Below, one piece after another: positions 13,186-14,746 of a stretch of DNA of 33,755 nt (position 1 is the first letter of the stretch; each line of letters begins with the position of its first letter). The notes beneath the pieces were generated by a model. The model was not told the DNA's origin and searched no databases. It worked only from the letters and a program-made list of their open reading frames with translations. Source of the DNA: an uncultured archaeon. GTDB lineage: Archaea; Nanobdellota; Nanobdellia; Woesearchaeales; CAIVOO01. The stretch covers positions 1-33,755 of the forward strand of contig CAIVED010000016.1 of the NCBI GenBank assembly GCA_903904885.1. The letters are read 5' to 3'. The position numbers and the translations under genes were made by a program.

Positions 13186-14746
13186 AATTCCCGTTGATCC
13201 TGCGGGGGGCTGCTGCTATCAGGGTTCGAATAAGCCATGCAAGTCAGACAGCAATGTCGGCAAACTGCGTAGTAACACGTCGGTAATCTGCCCTAGGGCG
13301 GGGGATAACCTTGGGAAACTGAGGATAATACCCCATAAGAAAAGGCTACTGGAATGTTCCTTTTTTCAAAGGCAACACCCTAGGATGAGCCGGCGGCCGA
13401 TTAGGTTGTTGGTGAGGTAACTGCTCACCAAGCCATAGATCGGTAGGGGCATTGAAAGATGTCGCCTCACGAAGGGCACGGAGGTACTGGCCCTAGCCCT
13501 ACGGGGTGCAGCAGGCGCGAAGTCTTTACACTGCACGAAAGTGTGATAAGGGAACCCTGAGTGCTCATGCGCTGCATGGGCTTTTGCCAAGAGTAAATAT
13601 CTTGGAGAATAAGTGGTGGGCAAGACCGGTGCCAGCCGCCGCGGTAACACCGGCGCCACAAGTGGTGGCCTAGTATTTGGCCTAAAGCGTCCGTAGCTGG
13701 TCAGTTAAATCTCTTGTGAAATTGTTGAGCTCAACTCAACAGCGTGCAGGAGAGACTGGCTGACTTGAGACTGGGAGGGGCTAGGAGTATTCTATGGGGA
13801 GCGGTAAAATGCTATAATCCACAGAAGACTACCGATAGCGAAGGCACCTAGCCAGAACAGATCTGACAGTGAGGGACGAAAGCCAGGGGAGCAAAACGGA
13901 TTAGATATCGAAGATTCTGAAATTTTAGGTTTGATTTACAATGGCTCTACGACTACAGTTGTAGAAAGAATCTAAAACATGAAAATGAGAGTCTCTCGAC
14001 TAAATACCCGAGTAGTCCTGGCCGTAAACGCTGCGAGTTAGGTAATGCACATTCCTAGAGAATGTGCAGTATCATAGCGAAGGCGCAAACTCGCCGCCTG
14101 GGTAGTATGGTCGCAAGGCTGAAACTTAAAGGAATTGGCGGGGAGACACCACAAGGGGTGCGGCGTGCGGTTTAATTGAACTCAACGCCGGAAATCTCAC
14201 CAGAAGCGACGGCAGGATGAAGGTCAGTCTAAAGGGCTTACCTAACGAGCCGAGAGGTGGTGCATGGCCGTCGTCAGCTCGTGCCGTAAGGTGTCCAGTT
14301 AAGTCTGGCAACGAGCGAGACCTGTATCCATAGTTGCTAACGAGTAAGAGATTATGATCGAGCACACTATGGAAACTGCCTTCGTAAGGAGGAGGAAGGT
14401 GCAGGCTACGGTAGGTCTGTATGCCCCGAATCTTCTGGGCTACACGCGCGCAACAATGGTAGGGACAATGGGATACGACCGCGAAAGCGGAAGTCAAGCC
14501 TCTAAACCCTATCTTAGTTCAGATCGAGGGTTGCAACTCACCCTCGTGACGTCGGAATCCCTAGTAATCAGAAGTCACTATCTTCTGGCGAATATGTCCC
14601 TGTCTCTTGCACACACCGCCCATCATCCCATCCGAGCTGAGTTTGAATGAGGTGCAGCTTTTTGGCTGAAACGAATTCAGGCTTAGTGAGGCGGGGCAAG
14701 TTGTCACAAGGTATCCGTAGGGGAACCTGCGGATGGATCACCTCCT
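13186..14746 (+). rRNA. rrs: 16S ribosomal RNA gene, interrupted by a 99-nt intron
   Basis: The 5' end reads TTCCCGTTGATCCTGC. The 515-site GTGCCAGCCGCCGCGGTAA is intact at about 13630, AAACTTAAAGGAATTGGCGG near 14122, CAACGAGCGAGACC near 14309, and the 3' end GGATCACCTCC carries an intact anti-Shine-Dalgarno sequence. The span is about 1561 bases. Removing the 99-base insertion at 13907-14005 leaves about 1462, normal for Archaea. The decoding region shows unusual bases (A at the 1405 equivalent, T at 1496, C at 1499 by E. coli numbering). Ends are estimated from conserved motifs to within a few bases. Confidence 0.97.
13907..14005 (+). other. Archaeal-type 16S rRNA intron (99 nt) with bulge-helix-bulge
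   Basis: The universal GATTAGATACCC motif is split: GATTAGAT ends at 13906 and ACCCGAGTAGTCC resumes at 14006. The ends fold as a bulge-helix-bulge. Exon TTAG (13901-13904) pairs with intron CTAA (14000-14003). A three-base bulge ATA lies on each side (13905-13907 and 14004-14006). The inner helix TCGAAGATTCT (13908-13918) pairs with 13988-13999, with one bulged C and one G·T pair. Cutting after the second base of each bulge, the usual rule for the archaeal splicing endonuclease, restores the canonical sequence exactly. The outer exon helix begins with an A·C mismatch followed by three G-C pairs. A hairpin (13946-13965, loop TACA) fills the middle. No endonuclease gene is encoded within it. 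Confidence 0.9.

Follow-up and report, generated by a model that had tools for sequence, protein, structure and literature searches.

The 16S rRNA gene of this uncultured woesearchaeal archaeon is interrupted, within its most conserved loop, by a 99-base insert that our analysis confirms as a genuine archaeal-type intron. We consider it very probable that this is a short, ORF-less bulge-helix-bulge (BHB) intron spliced by EndA and RtcB, with an apical loop of a family type that docks on both exon strands of h24. The central claim of an earlier note on this DNA, namely that the insert breaking the 787–806 site is a BHB intron, is borne out by the flanks, the 3-4-3 motif, the exact restoration of the site and the relatives (44/44); the wide, patchy spread of the intron in the order and the covariation of its apical loop with the exons were not visible there.

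Within the window (the whole stretch of 33,755 nucleotides that was analysed), the archaeal SSU rRNA gene occupies 13187–14746 of the forward strand and matches the whole Rfam model RF01959 with 1362.8 bits. The gene and its neighbors are arranged thus:

13187..13906, + strand: 16S rRNA 5' exon (Rfam RF01959 match; exon end from the BHB rule)
13907..14005, + strand: 99-nt BHB intron at E. coli 793/794 (flanks, fold, relatives)
14006..14746, + strand: 16S rRNA 3' exon (Rfam RF01959 match)
14836..14911, + strand: tRNA-Ala(TGC) in the 16S–23S spacer
15117..18022, + strand: 23S rRNA (full-length model match, no large insert)

The two flanks lie 99 bases apart: GGATTAGAT has its last base at 13906, and ACCCGAGTAGTCC its first at 14006. 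When each bulge is cut between its second and third bases, the exons come out exactly as ...GAT/ACCC... (GATTAGAT/ACCC), and excision of the 99-nt insert restores GATTAGATACCC, the intact form of which is absent throughout the genome. The 806R primer spans E. coli 787–806 by definition; GATTAGAT accordingly ends at 793, which puts the intron in the 790 loop, at the junction of 793 and 794. Hence, the insertion point proposed earlier holds, as does the disruption of the 806R site in the gene. The elements of the intron that define its fold are the following:

13901..13904, + strand: BHB central helix, exon strand UUAG (pairs with 14000–14003)
13905..13907, + strand: BHB bulge 1, AU/A, with the 5' splice site after 13906 (AUA or AUU in 44/44 relatives)
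13908..13911, + strand: P1 (inner helix), first four pairs, 5' strand UCGA (covarying pairs and fold; with 13996–13999)
13935..13941, + strand: P3 5' strand closing the apical loop (fold; same architecture in relatives)
13959..13965, + strand: P3 3' strand (fold; same architecture in relatives)
13996..13999, + strand: P1 3' strand UCGA (fold and covariation)
14000..14003, + strand: BHB central helix, intron strand CUAA (invariant in 44/44)
14004..14006, + strand: BHB bulge 2, AU/A, with the 3' splice site after 14005 (sequence and relatives)

A canonical 3-4-3 bulge-helix-bulge thus spans both junctions, and the ATA bulges, the TTAG/CTAA helix and the 11-pair inner helix described in the earlier note were all recovered, the last with one single-base bulge on its 3' side; the insert folds with z = -3.2, a stability that none of 200 shuffles attained. 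The relatives preserve this arrangement: the intron-side CTAA, a tetramer absent from the search pattern, recurs in 44 of 44 distinct introns at the site; none of them departs from standard pairing at inner pairs 1 and 2, which show 3 and 6 pair types respectively; and pairs 3 and 4 are standard in 43/44 and 40/44, again with several pair types. In the MAFFT alignment, the exons and P1 are well aligned and P2, P3 and the loop poorly so. The case that would speak against a BHB intron, relatives with the insert but without BHB pairing, does not occur among these introns, the BHB being present in all 44. By each applicable criterion the insert is a BHB intron, one that is presumably spliced in vivo.

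The enzymes for such splicing are at hand. The genome (44 contigs, 98.7% complete, a single 16S copy) encodes one RtcB and one EndA, the endonuclease to which the earlier note pointed; the latter is complete, a 190-aa single subunit with both the N- and C-terminal Pfam domains. We take this domain make-up to be that of the homotetrameric type, which is the type strict for canonical BHB motifs. Further copies of the intron in this genome were sought, and none rose above chance matches. The 5S rRNA lies at 20095–20210 on the opposite strand, away from the 16S–tRNA–23S operon. Around the 16S gene, an 18-nt perfect inverted repeat (13143–13160 and 14786–14803) forms the pre-rRNA processing stem, in which no 3-4-3 BHB motif is seen by eye; the usual archaeal 16S processing stem has one.

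The comparison with relatives envisaged in the earlier note covered 353 genomes of the order (Woesearchaeota MAGs): the intron stands at 793/794 in 40 and the site is uninterrupted in 92, the remaining genomes being without a readable site; about 30% of the readable 16S genes in the order (40 of about 130) therefore carry it, and the attribution to a DPANN host stands. The search pattern consisted of the two flanks and a gap only: a first scan was positive in 35/353 genomes, with introns of 69–121 nt, and a wider gap added five more of 126–142 nt. The nearest relative, from the same family (G002/L011), has an uninterrupted site, and the next-nearest carries the intron. Across 84,980 named species the pattern retrieved 41 stretches, nearly all titled as Woesearchaeota or Nanoarchaeota MAGs. 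Two intron-bearing contigs (L074, L093) are titled as bacteria, probably through binning or naming errors, and one genome (G093, contigs C19 and C46) has one 16S gene with the intron and another without it, probably owing to mixed contigs or a binning error. A match in Xenophilus (L100) was not extracted as an intron, branches at a great distance from the archaea in the tree, and was omitted as a probable chance match.

Beyond the BHB, the introns of this family share a plan of three helices, P1, P2 and P3, capped by an apical loop of 16–20 nt; some longer versions (L138, L055, L134) have extra hairpins between P1/P2 and P3, and retain the loop. This loop has two exon-complementary segments, which we term g1 and g2. 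In their central part, ACTAC is the most frequent 5-mer of the introns (23 of 41); CTAC occurs in 31 of the 41 loops, against 4.7 in shuffles, and Y-T-A-Y in 40. The g2 segment, ACUAC, is complementary to GUAGU of the 3' exon (E. coli 800–804). As this target is invariant, and demanded by the search pattern, the support for g2 takes the form of conserved complementarity, as opposed to covariation, and the predicted pairing of g2 with the 3' exon is to be read in those terms.

The g1 segment, a variable hexamer upstream of ACTAC, does vary with its target. Representative matches between g1 and the 5' exon are GATTGC with GCAATC, GATCGC or GATCGT with GCGATC, GTTCGT with GCGAAC, and GTTTGC or GTTTGT with GCAAAC. 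In a blind scan, each of the 1258 6-nt windows in the 16S exon alignment was scored, relative to shuffled hosts, for how well it complements the central part of the intron; the top window was E. coli 778–783, the 5' strand of h24, with a Z of 6.7, the next unrelated window reaching 3.6. At least five of six g1 pairs form with the exon in 32 of 41 introns, and at position 780 the 41 comprise 24 A-U, 14 G-C and 2 G-U pairs and 1 mismatch. With relatedness ignored, the association between g1 and exon at 780, 782 and 783 gives Fisher p of about 4e-9, 1e-6 and 2e-6. In phylogenetically independent pairs drawn on the 16S tree, the counts with and against are 6 and 0 at 780, 5.7 and 0 at 783, and a mean of 3.0 and about 0 at 782 (a few of the 200 pairings gave 1 against); these sign tests are small, with 6–7 informative pairs at two positions and about 4 at the third. 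The assignment of g1 combines the choice-free scan with hand-curated hexamers, a regex rule having mis-assigned several introns, so that the pair counts and the tree test use a g1 chosen by eye and the blind scan is free of such choice. Five longer introns that had been held out show 6, 6, 6, 6 and 5 of 6 g1 pairs. Taken as comparative evidence, these data show g1 as pairing with 5'-exon positions 778–783 in the family.

In the intron of the window, the relevant segments are:

13891..13896, + strand: 5'-exon target t1, GCAAAA, E. coli 778–783, h24 5' strand (covarying window)
13944..13947, + strand: candidate g1, GCUC (4 pairs with GAGC at 13889–13892)
13951..13956, + strand: g2, GACUAC, in the apical loop (6 contiguous Watson-Crick pairs with GUAGUC of the 3' exon)
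14012..14017, + strand: 3'-exon target t2, E. coli 800–805, h24 3' strand

This intron is without the expected g1, UUUUGC. Its candidate GCUC/GAGC makes four G-C-rich pairs two bases upstream, which taken alone is at chance level and not significant; with g1 thus weak, it is counted in the docking family for its position, its plan and its g2.

How such a loop came to match its exons admits of other explanations. One is that the loop segments aid mobility, locating an empty rRNA site for reverse splicing and thereby spreading the intron. Presence is certainly patchy: a tree with 83 16S genes shows at least 22 changes of presence, 14 of them forced by well-supported branches; loss alone could, nevertheless, account for much of this. 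The introns are ORF-less, and those of L004 and L010 are 93.9% identical against 84.5% for their host 16S exons, with no raised identity beside the intron that would indicate co-conversion (differences come as near as about 20 bases). Their g1, UUUCGC, makes only 4 pairs with their own exon, as if these introns had arrived recently, and over the whole set intron and exon similarity are unrelated (rho 0.04). Lateral spread of the intron is thus likely from the sequences. However, g1 follows the present host, implying selection after arrival as well, and we know of no reverse splicing by EndA and RtcB, which also counts against mobility as the role of the loop; we regard such a role as improbable.

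Another possibility is that the intron, once excised and circular, works in trans: by binding h24 in other pre-16S molecules, its g1 and g2 might chaperone folding, serve as a guide or time assembly. The targeting of both strands of one 16S element and a conserved loop that exceeds the needs of splicing would suit such a role, but 92 genomes of the order do without the intron, and the loop matches the gene of its own host even where neighbors differ. In comparison with H/ACA or C/D guides, the order of g1 with its 5' target and g2 with its 3' target fits a fold-back in cis and not an H/ACA pocket; no C/D motif was found among the commonest central 5-mers, nor any match of the insert to an Rfam guide family. 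We hold a role in trans to be unlikely.

Alternatively, these might be ordinary BHB introns in which the loop complementarity has no role, arising by chance or as a by-product of an origin in inverted copies of the exons. Elsewhere, BHB introns have no need of pairing of this kind, and for the 16S introns of the Thermoproteales it was reported that structure is not, as a rule, shared by the introns of one locus (Jay and Inskeep 2015, PMC4496867). Further, L068 (Aenigmatarchaeota AUK047) and L070 (Micrarchaeota nzgw29) have BHB introns at exactly 793/794 that are unrelated in sequence and lack the g1/g2 loop that matches the exons. More than one invasion of the site seems to have taken place, and docking is accordingly not required for a BHB intron here in general. 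These two introns are natural controls for the exon-matching loop. Against an absence of role stand three positions at which independent branches show compensatory changes, with hardly any change in the opposite direction, the selection of exactly 778–783 by the blind scan, and the fit of the held-out introns. We thus consider it very unlikely.

Two further readings are rejected as practically untenable: a degenerate group I intron, which has in its favor that such introns occur in Woesearchaeota rRNA (PMC6125680), is opposed by the strict BHB in 44/44, a length (69–142 nt) too short for a group I core and an insert without any Rfam covariance-model match at E up to 1, the group I catalytic core included; and an assembly error or pseudogene, which the division of the genome into 44 contigs might suggest, is at odds with its being the sole 16S copy in so complete a genome and with the recurrence of this site and this BHB in some 40 independent genomes.

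The docking BHB intron that we favor has both precedents and distinguishing features. Archaeal 16S introns are recorded at 374, 548, 722, 781, 803, 901, 908, 919, 978, 1093, 1205, 1213 and 1391 (PMC4496867); 793/794 is absent from these 13 loci, and our search of the open literature on rRNA introns in Woesearchaeales and DPANN did not find it. With the 16S introns of the Thermoproteales and others, it shares the 3-4-3 BHB, a conserved functional site, the breaking of primers and the EndA/RtcB route; it differs in locus, in its woesearchaeal hosts, in being short (69–142 nt) and ORF-less, and in a loop covarying with the exons. Those at 781 and 803 are sited in the very h24 strands that g1 and g2 target here, but have other splice sites and hosts (Thermoproteales, Caldiarchaeum, Desulfurococcales) and no reported docking loop. 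No homing endonuclease ORF is present in the 99-nt intron, and the family as a whole is too short for one. Group I introns of archaeal rRNA, about 250–1100 nt at the coordinates listed and mostly in the LSU (Nawrocki 2018, PMC6125680), likewise have woesearchaeal hosts and segments pairing with both exons (the internal guide sequence and P10). They self-splice, whereas the 793/794 intron, with its BHB, would be protein-spliced; moreover, its targets lie about 10–15 and 6–10 nt from the splice sites, unlike in group I. In group II introns, the loop segments termed EBS covary with the exon segments termed IBS; the likeness is an analogy of working only, as the 793/794 intron is without group II domains. 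An intron tip matched to the flanking rRNA on both sides has, to our knowledge, no earlier description. By its sequence features, this is a BHB intron at a new place with an added, putatively exon-docking module.

Briefly, we advance the following mechanism for its action. In the pre-rRNA, exon UUAG (788–791) would pair with intron CUAA, flanked by the two 3-nt bulges; EndA would cleave each bulge between its second and third bases, and RtcB would ligate U793 to A794 and probably circularise the intron. The intron itself would form a single long hairpin (P1-P2-P3), its 16–20 nt apical loop folded back on h24, with g1 in the 5' half of the loop on 778–783 and g2 in the 3' half on 800–804. These targets would be the opposite strands of the internal loop in h24, into which the tip docks, below a short CGG/CCG stem that would also serve as the outer helix of the BHB; a fold-back along h24 could meet both strands antiparallel and leave the BHB intact. 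Docking probably lends stability to the exon side of the EndA substrate, where the BHB is weak, and holds both exons from cleavage until ligation. We thus infer a docked, pseudoknotted intron that would hold both h24 exons for EndA/RtcB splicing; splicing in vivo, the simultaneity of the two dockings and the function of docking are all projected from the sequences. The broader proposal of a class of protein-spliced introns with an exon-docking loop, needed for faithful splicing and co-evolving with the host after lateral spread, we put forward tentatively, at a little under an even chance.

For surveys of these organisms, the consequence is practical: because the 806R/787F site is broken in the DNA of about 30% of readable 16S genes, their carriers would be undercounted or lost in DNA-based V4 surveys, a loss that surveys of rRNA-derived cDNA would escape. 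For the family, the finding bears on how BHB introns are conceived. They are usually viewed as a bare junction motif with arbitrary filler, but the filler here is a structured element that tracks exon changes; hence, tertiary pairing between intron and exon may take part in protein-catalysed splicing, a prospect that bears on the debated relation between BHB and ribozyme introns.
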